Assembly: GCF_023566055.1 (NCBI RefSeq)
Contig: NZ_JALIQP010000002.1
Span: forward strand, 310,001 to 374,000
From: Halosolutus amylolyticus
Lineage (GTDB): Archaea > Halobacteriota > Halobacteria > Halobacteriales > Natrialbaceae
Reading direction: 5' to 3'
DNA length: 64,000 bases
Shown: in pieces, positions 38,259 through 50,254 of the stretch
How the letters are laid out: each line of letters begins with the position of its first letter
How positions within the stretch are numbered: position 1 is the first letter of the stretch
Program-made: the position numbers and the translations under genes
The notes under the pieces: model-generated
The model's database searches: none
What the model saw: only the letters and a program-made list of their open reading frames with translations
Told to the model about the DNA's origin: nothing

Positions 38259-39263
38259 TCAGGACGCGTCCGGAGCCAGCGCGTCCATCGTCGCCTCGAT
38301 CTCGTCCTCGTCGGCACCGCGCGGGAAACTGACCGCGATCGCGTCGATCCCGTCGACGGCCTCGTACCGTTCGAGCGCCTCGCGAGCGGTCTCGGGGTCG
38401 CCGACGGCACAGAGGTCGTCGAGCAGGTCGTCGGTCAGCAGGTCGAGCGCGCGCTCGCGATCGCCCTCCTGCCAGGCGTCGTGGATCTCGGCGGCCTCGT
38501 CGTACCCCTGCCGGACGAGCGCGTCGCGGTAGAACGTACCCATCCCGCCGACGTAGAAGGCGACGTGCTGGCGCGCGAGGTCCCGAGCGCGATCGGCATC
38601 GTCGAGCGCACAGCAGGTGACGCCGGCGGTGACGGTCACGTCGTCGGGATCCCGGTCGCCGAGGTCGGCGCCGCGCTCGATGTCGTCGAGGCGCTCCGCG
38701 ACGCCGTCGGGGGTGAGCATGATCCCGTGCCAGCCGTCGCCGAACCGGCCGGCGAGTTCGACGGCCTTCGGCCCCATCCCCGTGACCTCGATCGGCGGGA
38801 CGGGGTCGGGCGGATCACACCGGAGTCGAAAGCCCGACAGTGAGAAGTCGTCGCCGTCGTACTCGACCCGCTCGCCGGAGAGCACCTGGCGGACGATCTC
38901 GACCGTCTCGCGGGTTCGCCTGAGCGGGTTGCCGTACTCCATTCCGTGCCAGTTCTCGATCACGACGGGACCGCTCGGGCCGAGGCCGAGACGGAACCGG
39001 CCGTCAGCGACCTCCTGGAGCGTCGCGGCCGTCTGGCCCAGGAGGGCCGGCGATCGCGAGTACGTGTTGACGATGCTCGATCCGATCTCGATCGCGTCGG
39101 TCCGCTCGGCCATCGCCGTCAGGACGGTGACGGCGTCCCGACCCCACGTCTCGGGGAGCCACGCGCAGTCGTAGCCGCCGTCCTCTGCTCGTCGGGCGTA
39201 ATCGACCAGGGAGTCGACCGTCGGCTGTGCCGCGACCGGGAGGTGGACGTCTCGATCGGTCAT
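38259..39263 (-). CDS. LLM-class (F420-dependent-type) oxidoreductase
   Basis: 334 residues with the luciferase-like TIM barrel: TVDSLVDYARRAEDGGYDCAW near the N-terminus, then GSSIVNTYSRSPALLGQTAA, DGRFRLGLGPSGPVV and IEVTGMGPKAVELAGRFGDGW. In haloarchaea such enzymes use F420 rather than FMN. The start overlaps the stop of the SDR gene by ATGA, so the two are co-translated, suggesting successive redox steps on one substrate. It lies 74 bp downstream of the AIR-synthase-like gene promoter. Confidence 0.85.
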   Translation of the reverse strand: MTDRDVHLPVAAQPTVDSLVDYARRAEDGGYDCAWLPETWGRDAVTVLTAMAERTDAIEIGSSIVNTYSRSPALLGQTAATLQEVADGRFRLGLGPSGPVVIENWHGMEYGNPLRRTRETVEIVRQVLSGERVEYDGDDFSLSGFRLRCDPPDPVPPIEVTGMGPKAVELAGRFGDGWHGIMLTPDGVAERLDDIERGADLGDRDPDDVTVTAGVTCCALDDADRARDLARQHVAFYVGGMGTFYRDALVRQGYDEAAEIHDAWQEGDRERALDLLTDDLLDDLCAVGDPETAREALERYEAVDGIDAIAVSFPRGADEDEIEATMDALAPDAS

Positions 39264-40036
39264 ATTTCGGGCGTCTCTTCGATCCGGGGGACGCCCTGGG
39301 CGGTGATCGTCTCGCCGACGATGTACGAGGAGGCCGGACTCGCGAGGAACTGCGTCAGGTCCGCGATCTCCTCGACGGTGCCCATCCGGCGCTCGACCTC
39401 GGTCCGATCGACCTCGTCCGCAGAGATACCCATCTGGCTCTCGACGCCCTCGGTCGCGACGAACCCGGGCGCGATGCAGTTGACGCGGACGCCGTCGCCG
39501 GCCCACTCGTAGGAGAGCGTCGTCGTGAGGTTGACGATGGCCGCCTTGGCCGCGCCGTAGTGGCTCATGTACGGCGAGCCCTGCGTGCCGGCGACGCTCG
39601 CGAAGTTGATCACGGTGCCGCCGCCGTCTTTGAGGTGCTCCTCGGCGGCCTGTAGACAGTTGTACGTGCCGTGGAGGTTGATGTCGACGATCGTCTTCCA
39701 GCCGTTCTCCGAGATGTCGTCGAAGCCCGCCATGAACGACGCGCCGGCGTTGTTGACCAGCACGTCGAGGCCGCCGAACTCCTCGACGGTCGCCTCGACG
39801 AGCGCGTCGACCGCCTCGCGATCGGTCACGTCGCACTCGATCGCCAGCGCCTCACCGGGCCGATCGCTCTCGGTGATCCGATCGGCGACAGGATCGACGT
39901 TCTCCTGCTCGCGCGAGCAGATGACGACGTCGACGCCGTTGTCGGCGAACGTCTCCGCGATTCCCTCGCCGATGCCGCTCGAGGCGCCGGTCACGATGGC
40001 GACGTCGCCGTCGACGCCGAACTGGTCGGTACTCAC
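39260..40036 (-). CDS. Short-chain dehydrogenase/reductase (SDR)
   Basis: 258 residues, classical SDR. The cofactor motif is TGASSGIGEG, and NNAGASF, the Ser in NFASVAGTQG and the catalytic Tyr and Lys in YGAAKAA follow. The C-terminal glycine-rich segment reads YIVGETITAQG. Arg in CSREQ after strand 2 suggests NADPH preference. Likely a 3-oxoacyl or hydroxyacyl reductase or dehydrogenase given the neighbourhood. It is first gene of a two-gene unit with the LLM oxidoreductase and divergent from the 2-hydroxyacid oxidase. A TTACCATTGTTA motif lies in its promoter. Confidence 0.88.
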   Translation of the reverse strand: MSTDQFGVDGDVAIVTGASSGIGEGIAETFADNGVDVVICSREQENVDPVADRITESDRPGEALAIECDVTDREAVDALVEATVEEFGGLDVLVNNAGASFMAGFDDISENGWKTIVDINLHGTYNCLQAAEEHLKDGGGTVINFASVAGTQGSPYMSHYGAAKAAIVNLTTTLSYEWAGDGVRVNCIAPGFVATEGVESQMGISADEVDRTEVERRMGTVEEIADLTQFLASPASSYIVGETITAQGVPRIEETPEI

Positions 40037-40225: not shown

Positions 40226-41410
40226 ATGACAGCAGACAATCCGCAGTACGGACCGAACAGGCAGGAGGAGGTGTATCGTCGCGGGATGCTCGAGGGAGAG
40301 CCCCCCGAGTTCCCCGTTTCCTACGAGGACCTCGAGGAGCGCGCCCGCGAGGAACTCGACGAGGAGGCGTTCGCGTACGTCGCGGGCGGCGCGGGCTCGG
40401 AGTCGACGGTCGAGGCCAACGATCGGGCTTTCGACGAGTGGCAGATCGTCCCGCGAATGTTGCGGGACGTCTCCGAGCGCGATCTGGGGGTCGAACTCTT
40501 CGGACAGGAACTTCCTGCGCCCGTGATGCTGGCACCGATCGGCGTCCAGTCGATCCTCCACGACGACGCGGAACTGGCGGTCGCGCGAGCCGCCAGCGAC
40601 CTCGACGTGCCGATGATCTGTAGCTCCGTCTCGTCGTACACGATGGAGGAGGTCGCAGACGAACTCGGCGACGGGCCCGACTGGTTCCAGCTCTACTGGA
40701 GCGCCGATCGGGACGTCGCGGCGAGCTTCCTCGAACGCGCGGAGGCGGCGGGCTACGACGCGATCGTCGTCACGCTCGACACGCCGAAGATGGGGTGGCG
40801 CGAGCGCGACGTCGAACTCGCCTACCTCCCCTTCCTCGCGGGCCAGGGCATCCGGAACTACTTCGAGGACGAGGCCTTTCTCGATCGGCTCGACACCGAT
40901 AATCCCTGGGCCGATCCCGAAGCCTCGCTGGAATCGTTCATCGACTGCTTCGGCGACGCCTCCCTCACCTGGGACGACCTCGAATTCCTGCGCGAGCACA
41001 CGGACCTGCCGATCGTCCTCAAGGGCGTGCTCCACCCCGACGACGCCCGGAAGGCCGTCGAGCATGGCATGGACGGCGTCGTCGTCTCGAACCACGGCGG
41101 GCGGCAGGTCGACGGCGCGATCCCGGCGCTCGAAGCGTTACCGGAAGTCGTCGACGAAATCGGCGACGACGCGACCGTGCTGTTCGACAGCGGCATCCGC
41201 CGCGGGAGCGACGTCGTTCGCGCGGTCGCACTGGGTGCCGACGCGGTCCTGCTCGGGCGGCCCTACGCCTACGGCCTGGGCATCGGCGGCGAGGACGGCG
41301 TCCGTGCAGTCCTCGAGAACCTGCTCGCCGATCTCGACCTCACCGTCGGCCTCGCGGGCTGTGCGAGCGTCGACGAGGTCGATCGATCGACGATCCGGAG
41401 GGCGGACTGA
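40226..41410 (+). CDS. FMN-dependent 2-hydroxyacid oxidase/lactate 2-monooxygenase-like protein
   Basis: 394 residues, FMN-binding TIM barrel. Conserved blocks are FAYVAGGAGSESTVEAN, PVMLAPIGVQSILH, WFQLYWSADRDV, the FMN Lys in VLKGVLHPDDA, the catalytic His in VVSNHGGRQVDG, and the phosphate loop RRGSDVVRAVALGADAVLLGRPYAYGL. Members oxidise lactate, glycolate or mandelate-like substrates. The exact substrate and whether it decarboxylates cannot be told. Its TGA overlaps the ATG of the HAD gene by one base, so the two are coupled. Confidence 0.87.
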   Translation: MTADNPQYGPNRQEEVYRRGMLEGEPPEFPVSYEDLEERAREELDEEAFAYVAGGAGSESTVEANDRAFDEWQIVPRMLRDVSERDLGVELFGQELPAPVMLAPIGVQSILHDDAELAVARAASDLDVPMICSSVSSYTMEEVADELGDGPDWFQLYWSADRDVAASFLERAEAAGYDAIVVTLDTPKMGWRERDVELAYLPFLAGQGIRNYFEDEAFLDRLDTDNPWADPEASLESFIDCFGDASLTWDDLEFLREHTDLPIVLKGVLHPDDARKAVEHGMDGVVVSNHGGRQVDGAIPALEALPEVVDEIGDDATVLFDSGIRRGSDVVRAVALGADAVLLGRPYAYGLGIGGEDGVRAVLENLLADLDLTVGLAGCASVDEVDRSTIRRAD

Positions 41411-42162
41411 TGGCCGACGGCGGGACCGAAAACCGGGTCCGTCCCCCGGACCCGCCGGCGCACCCCGACGAGTGGGAGGCCGTCTTCTGGGACATCGGCG
41501 GCGTGATCCTGGAACTCGAGTCCGTCCAGGCCGCCCACGCCGACTTCGTCGCCGACCTGCTCGAACGCCACGACGTCGATCGCACCATCGAGGAGGCGAT
41601 CGAAATCTGGCGCACGACCGTCGGTGACTACTTTCGCGAGCGCGACGGCACGGAGTTCCGGGCCGCCCGCGAGGGCTACCACCGGGGAATCGAAGCCATC
41701 GTCGGCGAGGAAGTACCGATGGACGAGTGGAAACCGCCCTTCCGGGAGGCCGTCCGGGCGTCGATCGACCCCGTCCCCGGCGCGCCGGAGACGATCGAAC
41801 GCCTCGCCGGGCGAGACCTCCACGTCGGCGTCATCAGCGACGTCGACGACGCCGAGGGCAAGGGAATGCTCGAGCACTTCGGGCTTCGCCGCCACTTCGA
41901 CTCGATCACCACCTCCGAGGAAGTCGGCCGCACCAAACCTCACCCCGCGATGTTCGAAACCGCGATCGAGAAAGCCGGGGCCGCGCCCGAGCGATCGCTG
42001 ATGATCGGCGATCGGTACGCCCACGACGTCCGCGGTGCGGCCGAGATAGCCATGCACGGCGTCGCCTTCGGGGCCGACGACGGCCCGGCCGTCTCCTATC
42101 GTATCGAGTCTCCGGAAGAAGTCCTCGGCATCGTCGACGGAGAGGACGATCGCGACGCCTGA
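41410..42162 (+). CDS. HAD-family phosphatase (ACAD10 HAD-domain-like context)
   Basis: 250 residues. Motif I is FWDIGGVILELES; the second Asp of the usual DxD is replaced by Gly, as in the HAD domain of the epoxide hydrolase and ACAD10 group. Motif II lies in HVGVISDVDD, motif III Lys in GRTKPHP, and motif IV in MIGDRYAHDVRGA. Lack of the second Asp questions phosphatase activity. Overlaps the oxidase stop by one base. In mammalian ACAD10 a HAD domain is fused to the kinase and ACAD domains that are encoded just downstream here. Confidence 0.82.
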   Translation: MADGGTENRVRPPDPPAHPDEWEAVFWDIGGVILELESVQAAHADFVADLLERHDVDRTIEEAIEIWRTTVGDYFRERDGTEFRAAREGYHRGIEAIVGEEVPMDEWKPPFREAVRASIDPVPGAPETIERLAGRDLHVGVISDVDDAEGKGMLEHFGLRRHFDSITTSEEVGRTKPHPAMFETAIEKAGAAPERSLMIGDRYAHDVRGAAEIAMHGVAFGADDGPAVSYRIESPEEVLGIVDGEDDRDA

Positions 42163-42165
42163 CGA

Positions 42166-42330
42166 CTACAGCGGAATCGCCGCGACGTCCCCCGACCCGC
42201 AGGCCGGACAGGACCCCCGATCGTCCGACAGCGTCGTTCCGCACCGCCGGCACTCGTAGTGGACGCCCGATCGATCGGCGTCGTCGAGGTGCCGTCCGAT
42301 CGAGTCAGGCAACACGGAACTGATTTTCAT
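42166..42330 (-). CDS. Small zinc-ribbon protein
   Basis: 54 residues, MKISSVLPDS to VAAIPL. A zinc ribbon is formed by CRRC (27-30) and CPAC (41-44), with ECRRCGTTL and RGSCPACGSGDV as the two knuckles. There is a short N-terminal helix. Such proteins are abundant in haloarchaea and may bind nucleic acid or act as accessory subunits. It ends 3 bp from the HAD gene end (convergent), so it lies between the HAD gene and the ACAD gene. Confidence 0.7.
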   Translation of the reverse strand: MKISSVLPDSIGRHLDDADRSGVHYECRRCGTTLSDDRGSCPACGSGDVAAIPL

Positions 42331-42586
42331 TCGTGACCATCAGGCGAAAGCGAACAGTTCTCCGGTAAATGTTTTGTGATCACTCGCGATTGGTGGCATT
42401 ATTTCTAGACATATGTCTAATATATGCTCGAAACACGTCAATATTTCATTGCATCCGGAGGTACGCCAGATTCGTCTCCGCATGGCCCGTCCGCCGTCAG
42501 GATCAACTCGACCAGGGTCGGCTACCGCCGATTTCGTCCGAAAGGCGTTTATTCCACGCACCTCGCGTCCAGTGGATGTCAGGGAA
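42331..42586. promoter_or_regulatory. AT-rich intergenic region with a perfect 14-bp palindrome
   Basis: 256 bp between the zinc-ribbon gene start and the ACAD gene end. It contains TAGACATATGTCTA (42406-42419), identical to its reverse complement, in a locally AT-rich island. A weak minus-strand TATA-like CATTTACCGG lies about 35 nt upstream of the zinc-ribbon ATG. The palindrome is 76 bp from that ATG and could be an operator. No credible coding frame is seen. Confidence 0.4.
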
Positions 42587-43801
42587 TTAGCCGCGGAACC
42601 GCGTCACGGGGTCGAGTTCGCTCTCGTCGACGTCCTCGAAGGCGTCGCGGGCGATCACGCGCTTGTGGACCTCGTCGGCCCCGTCGACGATCCGGAACGC
42701 GCGGACGTTCTCGTAGAAGTCCGCGAGCGGCAGGTCCTTGCCGATCCCGTTGCCACCGCAACACTGGATCGAGAGGTCGACCGCGTCCTGGACGACGTTC
42801 GCGGTGAATACCTTCGCCATCGAGACCGGGACGCGCGCCTCGTTCCCCGACGTGATCTCGCGGGCCGCGTGGCGGACCATCGTCCGGGCGGCGTGAAGCC
42901 GGGTTTCGGCCTCGGCGACGTCGTATCGCAGACTCTGCTTCTCCGACAGTTTGCTTCCGAACCCCTCGCGCTCGTTCATGTACGCCTTCGCGACCTCGAG
43001 CGATCGCTGTGCCATCCCCGAGAAGCGCATACAGTGGGTCAGTCGCGCCGGACCGAGGCGCTTCTGGGCGATCGCGAAACCGGCGTTTTCGGCACCGAGC
43101 AGGTTCTCCTCGGGGACGCGGACGCCGTCGTAGACGATTTCGGCGTGACTCGCGCCGCGGAACGCCCCGCCGACGTGGGGGATGTCGCGTTCGAACTCGA
43201 CGCCGTCGGCGTCGCTGGGAACGAGGAAGATCGAACACCCCTGGTAGGGGTGGGCGTCCGGGTCGGTGCGGGCCATCACGAGCAACACGTCGGCCTCGCT
43301 GCCCTGGGTCGTCCACCACTTGTGACCGTCGATGACCCACTCGTCCCCGTCCTTGCGCGCGGTCGTCTCGATCATCTTCGGGTCGGACCCACCGCCCTGC
43401 ATCGGTTCGGTCATCGAGAACCCGGAGTGAATCTCCGCCTCGACCAGCGGATCGAGCCACCGGTCTTTCTGCGCCTCCGTGCCGGCCATCTCGAGCGTGT
43501 GCATGTTCCCCTCGTCGGGGGCGTCCACCCGCAGAGCCAGCGGGCCGAGCAGACTCCGGCCGGCCTCCTCGAACGCCGGGAGGACATCGCGGAACTCGAG
43601 ACCGAGACCGTCGTGTTCCTCGGGAATCTGGGGCGCGTAGAGGTCCCGATCGCGGGCCTCCTCGCGCAGGTCGTCGATCACGTCGTCCGGGACGGGTCCG
43701 TCGCCGAGCCACTCCCGTTCGACCGGGATCACCACCTCGTCGACGAATTCGCGGACGTCGGCGGCTAGCTCGCGGGCTCGATCGCTATCGTGATACTCCA
43801 T
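42587..43801 (-). CDS. Acyl-CoA dehydrogenase of the ACAD10/ACAD11 (LvaC-like) type
   Basis: 404 residues. FAD-binding blocks are HSGFSMTEPM and HKWWTTQGS; CGGNGIGKDLPLADFYENVR matches the C-terminal helices. Where ordinary acyl-CoA dehydrogenases have the catalytic Glu in YEGTSE, this protein reads VDGADEVH with Asp373, the form typical of ACAD10/11. In that group the enzyme acts on 4-phosphorylated acyl-CoA made by a partner kinase. The partner-type kinase gene is divergently encoded at 43962. TATA-like TTTATTTTAC is about 27 nt upstream of the ATG at 43801. Confidence 0.88.
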   Translation of the reverse strand: MEYHDSDRARELAADVREFVDEVVIPVEREWLGDGPVPDDVIDDLREEARDRDLYAPQIPEEHDGLGLEFRDVLPAFEEAGRSLLGPLALRVDAPDEGNMHTLEMAGTEAQKDRWLDPLVEAEIHSGFSMTEPMQGGGSDPKMIETTARKDGDEWVIDGHKWWTTQGSEADVLLVMARTDPDAHPYQGCSIFLVPSDADGVEFERDIPHVGGAFRGASHAEIVYDGVRVPEENLLGAENAGFAIAQKRLGPARLTHCMRFSGMAQRSLEVAKAYMNEREGFGSKLSEKQSLRYDVAEAETRLHAARTMVRHAAREITSGNEARVPVSMAKVFTANVVQDAVDLSIQCCGGNGIGKDLPLADFYENVRAFRIVDGADEVHKRVIARDAFEDVDESELDPVTRFRG

Positions 43802-43848
43802 AGCGTACCCTAGATGAACATTGTAAAATAAAGATTCCGGCGTAACTA

Positions 43849-43860
43849 TTTTCGTTAAGC
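43849..43860 (+). promoter_or_regulatory. TATA-like promoter of the kinase uORF/gene
   Basis: TTTTCGTTAAGC is centred about 29 nt upstream of the ATG at 43885, the start of a 26-codon frame that runs into the kinase ATG at 43962. It fits a leaderless start at the short frame rather than at the kinase gene. Confidence 0.5.
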
Positions 43861-43884
43861 GGGTGGGGATAGTACCATACACTC

Positions 43885-43965
43885 ATGTCGATCACGAACC
43901 GGACGCCGACGGAGATGCCCGTACTGACCGACTGTACCGTCACGAGACGCGGGTGCGCGCCATGA
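43885..43965 (+). CDS. Short upstream ORF (26 codons) overlapping the kinase start by ATGA
   Basis: Begins at the ATG expected for a leaderless transcript and encodes MSITNRTPTEM...RRGCAP. Its TGA overlaps the ATG of the kinase gene as ATGA. Termination-reinitiation coupling is the likely purpose. The peptide has no recognisable homology. The alternative, that the kinase starts at an in-frame GTG at 43863, places the start too close to the TATA box. Confidence 0.4.
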   Translation: MSITNRTPTEMPVLTDCTVTRRGCAP

Positions 43966-45023
43966 GCGAGGACTACTACGAGCGACTCGTCGACGAGGAC
44001 GCACTGGCGGCCTACCTCGAAGACCACCTCGGATCGGTCGACGACTACGCGGTCGAACGCCACGAGGAGGGCCACTCGAACGAGACGCTGTACGTGACGT
44101 GGGGCGACCAGGATCTGGTCATCCGTCGACCGCCGCCGGGCGAGACCGCCGACACCGCTCACGACGTCCTTCGGGAGTACCGGGTGACGAACGCGCTCGT
44201 CGAGACGGACGTCCCCGTCCCCGAGCCGCTGCTGGCCTGCGAGGACCACGACGTCATCGGGAGCGACTTCTACGTGATGGAACAGCTCGAGGGCGACGTC
44301 CTCCGGCTCGAAGAACCCGATCGGTTCGCCGACCCCGCGTCCCGCGAGCGGATCGGCGAGGAACTGGTCGACACGCTGGCGTCGATCCACGACGTCGACT
44401 ACGAGGCCGTCGGTCTCGGGGAGTTCGGCCATCCGGAGGGGTACACCGAGCGTCAGGTCGAACGCTGGGGCCAGCAACTCATGTGGGCGTTCGACGTGAC
44501 CGTCGAGGAGCGCGAGGTGCCGGCCCTCTACGAGGTCGGCTCGTGGCTCCAGGAGCACTGTCCCGAGGAGCACCCGCACACGCTCGTCCATGGCGATTAC
44601 AAGCTGGACAACGTGATGTATGGCCCCGACGAGTCGCCGGAGTTAGTCGGCGTCTTCGACTGGGAGATGGCCACCCTCGGCGATCCGCGCGCCGACCTCG
44701 GCTGGATGCTGTCCTACTGGCGGGACGCGAAAGACCCCGAGCCGACGGTGCCGGAGCTCACCGCGACGTTCATGGAACGCGAGGGATACCCGACCCGCCG
44801 CGAACTGGTCGATCGCTGGGAGGCCGGGACCGGATACGAGTTCGAGCACGAGCGGTTCTACCGCGCGCTCGCGGTCTACAAACTCGCGGCGCTCGGGGAG
44901 ATGTTCTTCCGGCGCTACCTCGAGGGCAACAGCGACGATCCGATGTATCCGAAGATGGAGGATCGCGTCCCGGCGCTGGCCAATCGGGCGATGCGAATCA
45001 TCGAGGGCGACGAACCGCTGTAA
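43962..45023 (+). CDS. Aminoglycoside-phosphotransferase-fold kinase (ACAD10/11 kinase-domain or LvaA type)
   Basis: 353 residues, protein-kinase-like fold of the APH/ChoK family. The ATP-site Lys equivalent is in DLVIRRPPPG, the catalytic loop HGDYKLDNVM is at 210-219, and the magnesium-binding DWE is at 233-235. The closest families are the APH domains of ACAD10/11 and LvaA, which phosphorylate the 4-hydroxyl of hydroxyacyl-CoAs. That substrate is inferred from the adjacent ACAD10/11-type dehydrogenase. The start is set by the ATGA overlap with a leaderless short frame. Confidence 0.85.
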   Translation: MSEDYYERLVDEDALAAYLEDHLGSVDDYAVERHEEGHSNETLYVTWGDQDLVIRRPPPGETADTAHDVLREYRVTNALVETDVPVPEPLLACEDHDVIGSDFYVMEQLEGDVLRLEEPDRFADPASRERIGEELVDTLASIHDVDYEAVGLGEFGHPEGYTERQVERWGQQLMWAFDVTVEEREVPALYEVGSWLQEHCPEEHPHTLVHGDYKLDNVMYGPDESPELVGVFDWEMATLGDPRADLGWMLSYWRDAKDPEPTVPELTATFMEREGYPTRRELVDRWEAGTGYEFEHERFYRALAVYKLAALGEMFFRRYLEGNSDDPMYPKMEDRVPALANRAMRIIEGDEPL

Positions 45024-45131
45024 CGAGCCGCCGACCGGCTCCGTCCCGGCCGACTGGTCGGTGCGAAATTACCGACGTTTGGACCAGAACTATCCTAGAA
45101 TACGCTCTAGACTTTCACTCCACCTATTTCT

Positions 45132-45167
45132 TAACATTGGTAATGATCGTCCGGTGGTATTAAGACG
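45132..45167 (+). promoter_or_regulatory. Promoter of the HCDH-crotonase gene with a TAACATTGGTAA motif
   Basis: TATA-like GTATTAAGACG (45157-45167) is about 27 nt upstream of the ATG at 45189. TAACATTGGTAA at 45132-45143 lies directly upstream, where an activator or repressor could act. The same word in opposite orientation with one change precedes the SDR gene (40065). Confidence 0.5.
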
Positions 45168-45188
45168 ATACCGGACGACGTGGCGACC

Positions 45189-47177
45189 ATGTCATACGAG
45201 ACCATCGATCGCGTCGCGGTACTCGGCGCGGGAAACATGGGGCACGGGATCACCGAAGTGGCCGCGATGGCCGGCTACGACGTCACGATGCGGGACATCG
45301 AGGACGAGTTGATCGAGGAGGGCTACGAGGGGATCGCCTGGAGCCTCGAGAAACTCGCGGAGAAGGACCGCCTCGACGAACCGGCCGAGGAGATCCTCGA
45401 TCGGATCGACACCACGACCGATCTCGAGGCGGCCGTCGAAGACGCGGACCTCGTCGTCGAGGCCGCGCCCGAGAACCTGGAGTTGAAACACGACATTTTC
45501 TCGGATCTGGAGGAGTACACGGACGGGGACACCCTGCTGGCGACCAACACGTCGAGCCTGCCGATCACGGACATCGCGGAGGCCGTCGACACCCCCGAGC
45601 GCGTCCTCGGTCTCCACTTCTTCAACCCGCCGGTGAAGATGGACCTCGTGGAGGTCATCTACGGCGAGGAGACCAGCGACGAGGCCGCTGAGGCCGGCCA
45701 CGAGTGGGTCGAGTCGATCGACAAGACGCCGATCTACGTCCGCAAGGACGTCCGCGGCTTCGTCGTGAACACGATCGTCGGCCCGTTCGGCGGCGAACCC
45801 GCCTGGATGGTCTCCGAGGGCGACGCGACGATCCGGCAGGCCGACGCCGCGATGGTCCACCAGCGCGGCTACCCGATGGGGCCGTTCGAACTCGCCGACA
45901 TGACGGGCATCGACATCGGCTATCACGTTCGCAAGGAGGCCGGCGACGACGTGCCGCCGATCGTCGAGGAGAAAGTCGAGAACGAGAACCTCGGCCGCAA
46001 GACCGGAAGGGGTTACTACGACTACGAAGACGGAGAGACGTCGGAGACGTCTCAGGCAGACGGCGACGGCCCCGACTACGAACCCGGTGACGGGGAGGGC
46101 TTCGACACGCTCCAGGTCGAGGCGCGCATGGTCAACCGCGCCGCGTACCTCGTCGGCGAGGGCGTCGCCACCCCCGAAGCCGTCGATACCGGCGTCCAGC
46201 TGGGGCTTGGCTTCCCCGAGGGGATCTGTCGCCGGGGCGACAAGCTCGGCCTCGACACCGTCCTCGAGAAACTGGAGACGCGACTCGAGGAGACCGGCCA
46301 CGATCGGTTCGAACCGCACCCGTATCTCGAGGAACTCGTCGCCGAGGGCACGACCGGCGAGGACGCGGGCGCGGGCTTCTACGAGTACGACGACGGCGAC
46401 GGCGCGCTTGAGGGGTATCACTACCTGAACGCGACGATCGAGGACCGCGTCCTCGAGGTCGAACTCGATCGGCCCTCCCGGATGAACGCGCTCTCGGCGG
46501 ATCTCCTCGGAGAGATCGACGACCTGTTCTCCGCGGTCGACACTGAGGAGATCCGCTGTGCGACGATCGAGGGGGCCGGCGATCGCGCGTTCAGCGCCGG
46601 TGCGGACATCACGGGCTTTGGCTCGCTCGAACCGACGGACGCGATGGACGTCACGCCCGCCTTCGAGACGGTCAACGACTTCCCGCGGCCGGTCGTCGCG
46701 AAGATCGACGGCTACTGCCTCGGGGCCGGCCTCGAACTCGCGCTGGCCTGCGACCTGCGGCTCGCGACCGATCGGTCCGCCTTCGGCGCGCCCGAGATCG
46801 GCCTCGGACTGATCCCCAGCGGCGGCGGCACCCAGCGCCTGATGCGCGTCCTCGGGGAGACCCGGGCGAAGGAGCTGGTCTTCCGCGGGAACCACATCGA
46901 CGCCGATCGGGCCGAGAACTGGGGTCTCGTCAACCGGGCGGTCGATCGCGACGACTTCGACGACGTCGTCGCGGAGTTCGTCGACGACCTGCGCAACGGG
47001 CCGCCGATCGGCCTCGAGGTCGCCAAGAAGGTGATGAACGAGGGCGAGGACGCCAGCCTCGAGGCGGCGCTCGCGATGGAGAGCCAGGGCTTCGGTCTCC
47101 TGATCGGCACCGACGACGTGATGGAAGGGACGATGGCGTTCGCCGAGGACCGCGAACCGGAGTTCGAGGGACAGTGA
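45189..47177 (+). CDS. 3-hydroxyacyl-CoA dehydrogenase/enoyl-CoA hydratase fusion protein
   Basis: 662 residues carrying two steps of beta-oxidation. The NAD-binding HCDH domain starts VAVLGAGNMGHG; VLGLHFFNPPVKMDLVEVI and RDIEDELI follow. Two HCDH C-terminal domains are separated by an acidic linker, about 280-300, which carries a DNA hairpin at 46035. The crotonase domain at about 420-662 has FSAGADITGFG, YCLGAGLELALACDLRLA and the acid in APEIGLGLIPSGGGTQR. The domain order (dehydrogenase first) is the archaeal type. It is followed after one base by a MaoC gene. Confidence 0.93.
   Translation: MSYETIDRVAVLGAGNMGHGITEVAAMAGYDVTMRDIEDELIEEGYEGIAWSLEKLAEKDRLDEPAEEILDRIDTTTDLEAAVEDADLVVEAAPENLELKHDIFSDLEEYTDGDTLLATNTSSLPITDIAEAVDTPERVLGLHFFNPPVKMDLVEVIYGEETSDEAAEAGHEWVESIDKTPIYVRKDVRGFVVNTIVGPFGGEPAWMVSEGDATIRQADAAMVHQRGYPMGPFELADMTGIDIGYHVRKEAGDDVPPIVEEKVENENLGRKTGRGYYDYEDGETSETSQADGDGPDYEPGDGEGFDTLQVEARMVNRAAYLVGEGVATPEAVDTGVQLGLGFPEGICRRGDKLGLDTVLEKLETRLEETGHDRFEPHPYLEELVAEGTTGEDAGAGFYEYDDGDGALEGYHYLNATIEDRVLEVELDRPSRMNALSADLLGEIDDLFSAVDTEEIRCATIEGAGDRAFSAGADITGFGSLEPTDAMDVTPAFETVNDFPRPVVAKIDGYCLGAGLELALACDLRLATDRSAFGAPEIGLGLIPSGGGTQRLMRVLGETRAKELVFRGNHIDADRAENWGLVNRAVDRDDFDDVVAEFVDDLRNGPPIGLEVAKKVMNEGEDASLEAALAMESQGFGLLIGTDDVMEGTMAFAEDREPEFEGQ
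46035..46053. repeat. In-frame 8-3-8 hairpin in the linker of the HCDH-crotonase gene
   Basis: GAGACGTC, loop GGA, GACGTCTC: a perfect 8-bp stem with a 3-nt loop, lying in a codon stretch that encodes the variable acidic linker (ETSETSQAD). It resembles the CAC-loop hairpins in the RND and Lhr genes in stem length, loop size and the GAGACG/CGTCTC stem, but the loop sequence differs. Confidence 0.45.
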
Positions 47178-47178
47178 G

Positions 47179-47628
47179 ATGGCCGACGAGACGCTGTCGT
47201 TCGACGATCTGGAGGTCGGCCACGAGGTCGTCACCCACTCGCGGACGATCACGGAGGCCGACGTGCGCAACTACGCGGGCGTCAGCGGGGACTTCAACCC
47301 GCTCCACCTGAGCGATCGGTTCACCGCCGAGGAGACCCCCTTCGGGGAGCCGATCGCACACGGGGCCCTGCTGTTCGGCATCGCGAGCGGCCTGCTGTGG
47401 CAACACCGTCACGAGCGACCGGACACGATCGCGTTCTACGGCGTGGACAGCATGCGCTTTACGACCCCCGTCACGATGGGGACGACGGTACACGCGGAAT
47501 CGGAACTGATCGAGAAGGAGCCGCGGGACCATCCCGTCGCGAACGGCGTCGCCCGGTACGAGACGCGCCTGGTAACCGACGAGGACGAAACCGCGCTCTC
47601 GTGTGAGATGCTGACGCTCGTGCGCTAG
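47179..47628 (+). CDS. MaoC-family (R)-enoyl-CoA hydratase-like protein
   Basis: 149 residues, hot-dog fold. The hydratase-2 motif with catalytic Asp and His is in NYAGVSGDFNPLHLSD, followed by PIAHGALLFGIASGLL and FYGVDSMRFTTPVTMG. It hydrates enoyl-CoA to (R)-3-hydroxyacyl-CoA, or dehydrates in reverse. It starts one base after the stop of the HCDH-crotonase gene and is certainly co-transcribed. Having both an (S)-specific crotonase and an (R)-specific hydratase in one operon would allow epimerisation of 3-hydroxyacyl-CoAs. Confidence 0.88.
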   Translation: MADETLSFDDLEVGHEVVTHSRTITEADVRNYAGVSGDFNPLHLSDRFTAEETPFGEPIAHGALLFGIASGLLWQHRHERPDTIAFYGVDSMRFTTPVTMGTTVHAESELIEKEPRDHPVANGVARYETRLVTDEDETALSCEMLTLVR

Positions 47629-47672: not shown

Positions 47673-48224
47673 TTACCGCTCGCCGTGTGCTTCCCCGAGG
47701 TCCTCGTAGATCCGGGGGTCGGTCCGGAACTTGAGCACGTTGTGGACGGCCGAGTTCCGGATGTTCGCGATGACGTCGCCGTACTCCTTGTAGCAGTCGT
47801 GGATCCACTTCGAGACCTGCTGGCGATCGCGGAACATCATCACCGTCTTCCACTGGTACTCGCCGTCCGAGAGGAAGAAAAAGAGGGTGTGCTTGTCCTG
47901 GCGGATGTGTTCCATCGCGTCGTACCAGCTCTCGGCGAAGTGTTCCGTGTTGAACTTGAACTCGAACAGCGCGAAGATGTAGTACTCCTCGTTGGGGATG
48001 ATCGCCTCGCGGAAGACGCCCTCGTCGCGCATCCGGCGGATCGACTCGCTGACCGTTACGTGCGAGACGTCGATGTCGTAGTCCTCTTTCAGCACGCTCG
48101 TCAACTCGCGAGACGAGAGTTGCGGATCCTCCGCGAGTTCACAGAGGATCGCGATGTCCCGATCCTTGAAGTCCCAGTCCGGCGCTTCGTCCCTGGTCAT
48201 CGTCTGTGAATTCGTTGGTTCCAT
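47673..48224 (-). CDS. Winged-helix (Lrp/AsnC-like) transcriptional regulator
   Basis: 183 residues. The N-terminal winged helix reads FKDRDIAILCELAEDPQLSS, RELTSVLKEDYDIDVSHVTV, SESIRRMRDEGVF. The C-terminal 100 residues form an alpha/beta domain (EYYIFALFEFKFNTEHFAES) not clearly the standard RAM ligand domain. It lies 3 bp downstream of the alpha/beta hydrolase gene, in an operon with the hydrolase and an acyl-CoA dehydrogenase, and is the best local candidate to control the acyl-CoA genes. That role is inferred from position. Confidence 0.8.
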   Translation of the reverse strand: MEPTNSQTMTRDEAPDWDFKDRDIAILCELAEDPQLSSRELTSVLKEDYDIDVSHVTVSESIRRMRDEGVFREAIIPNEEYYIFALFEFKFNTEHFAESWYDAMEHIRQDKHTLFFFLSDGEYQWKTVMMFRDRQQVSKWIHDCYKEYGDVIANIRNSAVHNVLKFRTDPRIYEDLGEAHGER

Positions 48225-48227
48225 CGT

Positions 48228-49118
48228 TTATGTGTTCGGATCGGACAGAAACGCCGCGAGCCGATCGGCGTAGGCGGCCGATCGATCCTCGGGCACCCAG
48301 TGGTAGGCGTCCGACAGCGGTTCGATTTCGGTGTCCGGAATATCCCCTGCCAGTCGCTCGGCGTACGCGAACGGCTGCATCACGTCGTCCTCGCCCCACA
48401 GCAACAGCGTCTCGGCCGTGATCGCCCCGTAGTCGATTTCGGTCGTGTGGTTCGTGTTCGTCGCGACGGCGTTCCGGACGAGCGATCGGTGGCCCTCCTC
48501 GGTCAGCCACGGCGCTTTCATCCCCTCGACGAACTCGGGGTCGGCTTCGCCGTAGGCACCGTCGACGAACGCCGAGTCGAGGCGCGCCTCGAGTTCAGAT
48601 CGATCCAGGCCGGCCGTCTCGGGCAACCCCAGGTTCGAGACGAACTCGACGGGCCAGGAGTCGTAACAGACGGCGTTCGAGAGCACCAGCCGATCGACTC
48701 TGTCGGGGTTGTGTGCCGCGAAGCGGAGCGCGACCCCGCCGCCGATGTCGTGGGCGACCAGCGACACCGTCTCGACGTCGAGCGTCGCGAGCAGGTCCTC
48801 GAGCATCCGCTCCTGGGCGCGGATCGATCGATCGAAGCCGTCGTGCATCGCGGAGTTGCCGTAGCCGATCATGTCGGGAGCGATCGTCCGCCGCTCCTCG
48901 GCGATCGCCGGGACGATATCGCGCCAGAGGAACGACCAGGTCGGGATCCCGTGGAGGAAGACGACGGGAGGTTCGTCGCCAGCGTCCGCCTCGGTCTCGC
49001 CGGCCGATTTGCTCGCGACTCCCGGCCCGTCCTCGTGGTAGGCGACCGACAGATCGTGTCCGTCGACCGTTACGGCCGCCGTCTCCTGCCCGTCGCTCCA
49101 GGTTTCGTGGTCGGTCAT
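48228..49118 (-). CDS. Alpha/beta-fold hydrolase with Asp nucleophile
   Basis: 296 residues. The oxyanion motif [12 protein letters not shown] is followed by the nucleophile elbow VAHDIGGG, in which Asp rather than Ser is the nucleophile. A later acid falls in [12 protein letters not shown] and the catalytic His in [10 protein letters not shown]. The Asp nucleophile and the PTWSFLWRD block resemble haloalkane dehalogenases and epoxide hydrolases rather than esterases. The start overlaps the stop of the ACAD gene by ATGA, so it is the second gene of a three-gene operon. Confidence 0.82.
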
Positions 49119-50254
49119 AGCAACTGGTCGGCGACGATGTTCTTCTGGATCTCGCTGGTGCCCTCGTAGATCTTCGTGATACGGGCGTCCCGGTAGTAGC
49201 GCTCGACGGGGTGGTCGGAGACGTAGCCCGCGCCGCCGTGGACCTGGATCGCCTCGTCCGCGACGTCGACCGCGTGCTCGCTGGCGAACAGTTTGGCCAT
49301 CGAGGCGAACTTCGCGGCCAGCTGGTCGTCGCCGTCCATCGCGTAGGTCGCGGCGCGGTAGGTGAGCGATCGCGCCGCCTCGACGGTCGTCGCCATCTCG
49401 GCGAGTTTGTGCTGGATCGCCTGGAACTCGGCGATCGGCTGGTCGAACTGCTCGCGCTCCCCGGCGTACTCGAGGGCCGCGTCGAGCGCGGCCTGGGCGG
49501 TCCCGACCGCCTGTGCGGCCACGCTGACCCGGCCGGCGGCGAAGAAGTCCATCAGCTGGTAGAAGCCCGCGTTCTCGGTGCCGACGACGTTCTCCGCGGG
49601 GACGCGGACGTCGTCGAGGATCAGTTCCGCGAGGTCGGACGCTCGGATGCCGAGCTTGTTGTCGATCTTCTCTGCGCTGAAGCCGTCAAGATCCGTCGGG
49701 ACGAGGAAGGCGGTGATCCCCTCGTGGCCCGCGCCTGGGTCCGTCTTGGCCATCACTACGGCGACGTCGGCGATCGTTCCGTTCGTGATCCACATCTTGT
49801 TCCCGTTGAGGACGTACTCGTCACCATCCTGCTCTGCGCGCGTTTCCATCCCGGCGACGTTCGACCCGTGGGCTGGCTCGCTGATCGCGCTCGCACACGC
49901 CGCGTCACCGCTCGCGATCTTCGGGAGCCACTCGTCTTTCATCCACTCGTCGCCGAACCGCTCGATCATCGTCGAGCCGAAGCCGCGACTGCTGATCGCG
50001 CTCCCGATGCCGGGGTCAGCGCGCCACAGTTCCTCGGTGACGACGACGCTCGAGAGCAGGTCCATCCCCGCGCCGCCGTACTCGATCGGAATGCCGGTCG
50101 CGACGAGGTCCATCTCGGCCGCCTGCTGGACGAGGTCGTGCGGATACTCGCGGTTCTCGTCGTGCTCGCGTGCGACCGGTTCGATCTCCGCTTCGCCGAA
50201 TTCCCTGACAGTTCGACGGATCGCCCGCTGTTCCTCCGATAGCTGGAACGACAT
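49115..50254 (-). CDS. Acyl-CoA dehydrogenase, standard type
   Basis: 379 residues. Complete canonical signatures: [12 protein letters not shown] and [12 protein letters not shown] for FAD and substrate binding, [11 protein letters not shown], and the C-terminal catalytic Glu in [11 protein letters not shown]. It introduces the 2,3-double bond in acyl-CoAs, passing electrons to ETF. First gene of an operon with the hydrolase and the Lrp-like regulator. TATA-like AAAATTACTTC is about 27-30 nt upstream of the ATG. Contrast with the ACAD10/11-type enzyme at 42587, which lacks the Glu. Confidence 0.93.

Follow-up and report, generated by a model that had tools for sequence, protein, structure and literature searches.

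Organization of the locus

The DNA analysed here, which we call the window, is a stretch of 64,000 nucleotides from Halosolutus amylolyticus (contig NZ_JALIQP010000002.1, positions 310,001 to 374,000). All of the genes named in an initial annotation, made from the letters of the sequence, lie where it had put them; the gene order in Table 1 is that of a codon-usage gene call. The acyl-CoA dehydrogenase (ACAD) gene of principal interest begins with an ATG at 43801, its listed open reading frame opening upstream at 43882, and it diverges from the kinase gene across about 160 bp, so that the HAD, ACAD and kinase genes do not constitute a single operon.

Table 1. Genes and other features in and around the putative 4-hydroxyacyl-CoA module; functions are proposals where so marked.
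Feature	Position	Strand	Remarks
Luciferase-like oxidoreductase	38259-39263	-	Overlaps SDR gene; peripheral
SDR oxidoreductase	39260-40036	-	Conserved in the neighbourhood; candidate 4-oxoacyl-CoA reductase in the role of LvaD (from context)
FMN-dependent 2-hydroxyacid dehydrogenase	40226-41410	+	Present in few relatives; peripheral
HAD-superfamily protein (IA)	41410-42162	+	Pfam Hydrolase/HAD_2; proposed phosphatase or kinase restraint
ACAD10/11/LvaC-type acyl-CoA dehydrogenase	42587-43801	-	Proposed 4-phosphoacyl-CoA phosphate-eliminating enzyme
Divergent ACAD/kinase intergenic region	43802-43961	.	Divergent order kept in other Halobacteria
APH-fold kinase	43962-45023	+	Proposed 4-hydroxyacyl-CoA kinase; HGDYKLDN, DWEM
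3-hydroxyacyl-CoA dehydrogenase / enoyl-CoA hydratase (HCDH-crotonase) fusion	about 45189-47177	+	Downstream beta-oxidation
MaoC-like hydratase	47179-47628	+	Downstream of HCDH-crotonase fusion
Winged-helix regulator	47673-48200	-	Frequent near the module in other Halobacteria
Alpha/beta hydrolase	48228-49118	-	Overlaps ordinary ACAD gene
Ordinary (Glu-type) acyl-CoA dehydrogenase	49115-50254	-	Negative control in alignments

Active site and phylogeny of the dehydrogenase

The replacement of the catalytic Glu by Asp that had been noted in this ACAD is real and is typical of a known subfamily; the protein carries the motifs RLGPARLTHCMR, APDEGNM and VDGADEVH. Among solved structures it is closest to 4hr3 and ACAD11 (8v3u, 8v3v, 2wbi). 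In ACAD11, D753 is the catalytic base and the 4-phosphate is bound via R626, H634 and R637, mutants of which lose the ACAD step (PMC12440821). When the window protein is aligned to mouse ACAD11, R626, R631, H634, C635, M636, R637 and D753 are all present. In such alignments the full R/R/HCMR/Asp set occurs in 36/36 haloarchaeal proteins—a set selected on none of these columns—and in 0/45 ordinary ACADs; it also occurs in 109/109 related bacterial proteins, some of which were fetched with patterns containing the Asp and APDxGNM, so that both of these columns are partly selected there while the R/H/C/M/R columns are unselected. The conserved proline of the APDxGNM region is present too and, going by its position, is likely the Pro463/Pro759 of PMC11342911. 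We infer that the window ACAD would convert 4-phosphoacyl-CoA to 2-enoyl-CoA.

Experimentally studied ACAD11 and LvaC both fall within a superclade, containing ACAD11 and the LvaC of the lva operons, that is split from the ordinary ACADs (93/98); a rapid tree of broader sampling, in which some branches are long, recovers the same separation with a support of 84. Within the superclade four lineages form a polytomy: the haloarchaea (96/99), LvaC with Thermus (99/96), a Chelatococcus-type group (100/100), and ACAD11 joined by most of the bacterial relatives (100/100). In identity the window ACAD reaches 44% with the Thermus protein, about 40% with LvaC and about 35% with ACAD11. By its signature residues and by both trees it is not a dehydrogenase of the ordinary or isovaleryl type, and the position of the haloarchaeal clade outside the ACAD11 clade rules out straight orthology to ACAD10/11.

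The source genome encodes a further ACAD of the kind described here (C1:132707-133924; 72% identical), located near succinate dehydrogenase genes, and one such kinase only.

The lva operons of Pseudomonas were recognised by their published order (regulator, LvaA, the 12 kDa LvaB, LvaC, LvaD, LvaE, LvaF, LvaG), which is complete at loci L294, L295 and L297; at L296 and L298 it holds up to the limits of the contig or gene call. The Pseudomonas genes most like ACAD11 (L161, L177 and others) were ruled out as LvaC because they are lone genes without a kinase. This lone gene (L281-L283, L161, L177), which has no adjacent kinase and is distinct from LvaC, is 58-59% identical to mouse ACAD11. One study puts the identity of LvaC at 62% to the ACAD10 domain and at 56% to that of ACAD11 (PMC11342911); the LvaC proteins defined here by operon (L294-L298) are about 34% identical to mouse ACAD11, which is at odds with those figures.

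The kinase

The predicted product of 43962-45023 contains the HGDYKLDNVM motif reported in the initial annotation and matches Pfam APH at 1.1e-49. In the kinase tree the haloarchaeal proteins (100/100) group with the ACAD11 kinase, 3dxp and 9o56 (98/92), and LvaA and the Thermus kinases form a separate clade (99/96) away from them. The motifs follow the same division: HGDYKLDN and DWEM in the window kinase compare with HGDFKLDN and DWEL in ACAD11, and HGD[YF]KLDN is unlike the LvaA type (HGDFRTGN at locus L210). The kinases 9o56 and 3dxp, and the dehydrogenase 4hr3, are together with ACAD11 the closest solved relatives of the two window proteins, although their titles establish no function. 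Against the aminoglycoside APH(3') family the window kinase scores 42.6 bits (cut-off 205), and this score and the tree agree that it is not an antibiotic kinase. Its predicted activity is phosphorylation of 4-hydroxyacyl-CoA.

Co-inheritance in Halobacteria

Relatives of the three proteins were sought in 194 Halobacteria genomes, using thresholds of E at most 1e-110 for the ACAD, 1e-45 for the HAD, and 1e-70 for the kinase, the last placed at a wide gap in scores. The ACAD and the kinase are present in exactly the same 95/194 genomes, with no exception (naive Fisher 7e-58, a P value that ignores phylogeny). The two genes lie within 500 bp of each other in 36 genomes, 40 of the 42 such pairs being divergent, and in 38 of the 95 genomes they are both present yet unlinked. 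Among the rows listed, at least five genera (g2, g3, g22, g23, g32) include genomes with the genes and genomes without, the two always being present or absent together, a pattern that common ancestry alone leaves unexplained.

The HAD protein was found in 67 genomes, all of them among the 95. Its gene and the kinase gene share a strand and are less than 400 bp apart in 26 genomes; in 12 it is the ACAD gene that lies within this distance, and in 12 neither is near; the weakest, unlinked matches (39-45% identity) may be paralogues. Since the HAD, kinase and dehydrogenase are co-inherited in Halobacteria and the HAD is often beside its partners, we regard the trio as real. At 19/45 haloarchaeal loci an SDR with at least 60% identity is encoded no more than three genes away from a gene of the module, and other neighbours differ between genomes. 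Conservation of the neighbourhood in other Halobacteria, proposed in the initial annotation as a check, is thus borne out, and of the refuting outcomes named there none that sequence comparison can address came about.

The residue pattern of the ACAD (36/36 versus 0/45) and the gene set (95/95 co-occurrence) far exceed chance. This bears on a rival reading, that the dehydrogenase is of the ordinary kind and the kinase an unrelated one for small molecules or antibiotics, the two being chance neighbours in a beta-oxidation cluster. The divergent, non-operonic arrangement would suit such a reading, as would the names given to annotated relatives, isovaleryl-CoA dehydrogenase and aminoglycoside phosphotransferase; but the signature residues, the ACAD and kinase trees, the APH(3') score, and a co-occurrence that extends to genomes in which the genes are unlinked make it very improbable, and we reject both identities. 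The names in annotated haloarchaea would be corrected accordingly.

The HAD protein and phosphatases beside the kinase

Motif I of the window HAD reads FWDIGGVIL: the first Asp of DxD is kept and the second is replaced by Gly. FWDIGGV is present in 15/15 HAD orthologues with a readable motif I. This motif does not imply inactivity, because other HADs that have it, YihX among them, do act as phosphatases. The HAD domain of ACAD10 has the same one-Asp state, shows negligible phosphatase activity, and restrains the kinase (PMC11342911). Against TIGR02247 the window HAD scores 27.3 bits (cut-off 125.4) and so lies outside this subfamily. If the ACAD10 HAD belongs to TIGR02247, as we presume, then parallel recruitment is likelier than shared descent. 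The haloarchaeal protein probably keeps the accumulation of phosphorylated intermediates in check, whether by acting as a phosphatase or by holding back the kinase in the manner of the ACAD10 HAD domain. As a separate, co-inherited gene with an ACAD10-like degenerate motif, it would offer a simple system for finding the job of the HAD partner.

The HAD could instead stand outside the pathway as the partner of the FMN-dependent 2-hydroxyacid dehydrogenase, a reading compatible with our main explanation for the kinase and ACAD. The two genes overlap by one base, the last of the FMN-dependent dehydrogenase gene being the first of the HAD start codon (41410), and they are adjacent in one other genome (locus L115). 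We think this unlikely, however, given that the dehydrogenase gene is missing from most HAD loci, that the HAD was found in no genome without the kinase and ACAD pair, and that it so often lies close to one or the other.

TIGR02247 proteins (motif [FW]DFGGV) score above the cut-off in 13/249 Pseudomonadota genomes (L302-L314); 13/13 have the kinase, and the two genes are not adjacent.

Phosphatases of other families occur beside bacterial kinases of this kind. Of the co-directional genes lying within 150 bp of 90 such kinases, 40 encode ACADs and 31 SDRs; among the 59 other neighbours there are, by Pfam, 18 histidine phosphatases, 7 SurE and 1 ComB-type phosphatase, compared with 3 histidine phosphatases among 120 other genes at the same loci. 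The enrichment has a Fisher value of about 1e-10, allowing for unlisted rarer families and with related genomes not being independent. The loci concerned (L129-L208, L241-L280, L018, L020) thus present three unrelated phosphatase families. A histidine phosphatase in the levulinate cluster of P. citronellolis was noted earlier and suggested to remove phosphate (PMC6692424); no description of the wider pattern was found in the literature searched. In haloarchaeal loci without the HAD, no recurrent phosphatase family replaces it among 36 kinase neighbours, and Halocatena alone of these loci has a kinase-side phosphatase, of ComB type.

This pattern fits a partner whose role is to remove phosphorylated acids that have become dead ends, or to limit their accumulation. 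A broader generalisation, which we offer tentatively and hold to be somewhat doubtful, is that the kinase is hazardous and has repeatedly been joined by phosphatases, or by brakes derived from them, of unrelated families—HAD in haloarchaea and ACAD10, and histidine phosphatase, SurE or ComB-type proteins in bacteria—to repair or restrain phospho-acyl intermediates; in that case the haloarchaeal trio and the ACAD10 arrangement would have been invented in parallel.

Relationship to ACAD10/11 and the lva operon

The initial annotation described the locus as a split-gene version of ACAD10/11. As a functional analogy this stands, on the active-site residues and the co-inheritance; as a statement of descent it fails, given the ACAD clade and the HAD subfamily. 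With mammalian ACAD10/11 the locus shares the kinase clade and catalytic motif, the R/R/HCMR/Asp set of the ACAD, and independence of LvaB, and with ACAD10 in particular a HAD partner that keeps only the first Asp of DxD. It differs in being archaeal, in the divergence of its ACAD and HAD already described, and in consisting of three genes on two strands, whereas ACAD10 is one fused protein.

The further proposal of likeness to LvaA and LvaC holds for the dehydrogenase at the level of the superclade that it shares with LvaC and ACAD11, and not for the kinase, which sides with that of ACAD11. Shared with the Pseudomonas lva operon are an LvaC-type ACAD with RLAPARLTHCMR and a catalytic Asp, a separate kinase and an SDR, and, in some haloarchaeal relatives, a nearby CoA ligase. 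Unlike the operon, the haloarchaeal genes are divergent, encode a kinase about 25-30% identical to LvaA and of another clade, include a HAD where some lva clusters have a histidine phosphatase, and lack LvaB. The latter, in Pseudomonas lva operons, is a DUF6285 protein of 118 residues, and was found in 0/194 Halobacteria genomes. LvaB is needed in P. putida, whereas ACAD10/11 function in its absence. The Thermus thermophilus pTT27 cluster (TTH_RS10075-10060) resembles the window in its ACAD (44% identity, THCMR) with adjacent SDR and kinase genes, and differs in having an LvaA-type kinase, DUF6285 and a histidine phosphatase.

With a kinase that is ACAD11-like rather than LvaA-like, and with LvaB absent, the module is a mosaic. 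It appears to work like ACAD10/11 and Lva, using enzymes of the same superclade in a separate archaeal lineage, and to lie outside the ACAD10/11 and LvaA/LvaB families proper. The window SDR is about 34-37% identical to LvaD, within a generic family, and from its context it plausibly acts like LvaD, as had been suggested.

DUF6285 (PF19802) also lies beside LvaA-type kinases at L294-L301, L210 and L020; gene order and size equate it with LvaB, so that this domain of unknown function acquires a likely role.

A proposed pathway for 4-hydroxyacyl-CoA

We consider it probable that these genes form a haloarchaeal 4-hydroxyacyl-CoA catabolic module in which the 4-hydroxyl would be phosphorylated and then eliminated, the catalytic steps and the substrate being deduced from sequence comparison. 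The SDR would probably reduce a 4-oxoacyl-CoA such as levulinyl-CoA, supplying the 4-hydroxy substrate; the APH-fold kinase would use ATP to phosphorylate the 4-hydroxyl of 4-hydroxyacyl-CoA; and the Asp-type ACAD would hold the 4-phosphate with its R/H/R cluster and eliminate it to give 2-enoyl-CoA, with no net electron transfer. The HCDH-crotonase and MaoC enzymes could carry this product into beta-oxidation, and the HAD protein would probably curb the phosphorylated intermediates in one of the two ways named above. Counting against this explanation are the second ACAD paralogue, which has no second kinase to match it, the 38 genomes with unlinked genes, and the absence of LvaB.

On pHME132 of Haloferax mediterranei, genes for SDR, HAD, ACAD, kinase, HCDH-ECH, regulator, ordinary ACAD and CoA ligase lie side by side. 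This organism grows on levulinic acid as a carbon source at 0.097 per hour (PMC12455835). These observations point, short of proof, to the module as the obvious candidate for levulinate use in an organism of interest for bioplastics, and growth of this cultured haloarchaeon on levulinate would allow the proposal to be tested.

The substrate could differ, as the window ACAD is so distant from both ACAD11 and LvaC. The same kinase-then-eliminate chemistry might act on another hydroxylated acyl-CoA—branched, isoprenoid-derived or aromatic-derived, or with its hydroxyl elsewhere. The haloarchaeal ACADs form a clade of their own and the neighbours of the module vary between genomes; moreover, haloarchaea make ether isoprenoid lipids, so the mammalian lipid-peroxidation source is inapplicable to them. 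Such a substrate nevertheless seems improbable, since every phosphate contact that, in the model of ACAD11, fixes the phosphate at C4 is kept and H. mediterranei grows on levulinate.

A literature search of incomplete coverage found no paper linking haloarchaea with phosphorylate-and-eliminate chemistry. If the 4-hydroxyacyl-CoA assignment is true, this way of breaking down 4-hydroxy acids, so far reported from mammals and bacteria, extends to the Archaea; and if it runs in organisms whose membrane lipids are without fatty acids, the mammalian rationale of oxidised lipids cannot be general.

A set comprising the Asp-type ACAD, the alpha/beta hydrolase, the ordinary ACAD and the SDR recurs at three other loci (L092, L094, L103), which suggests a lactone or ester substrate.
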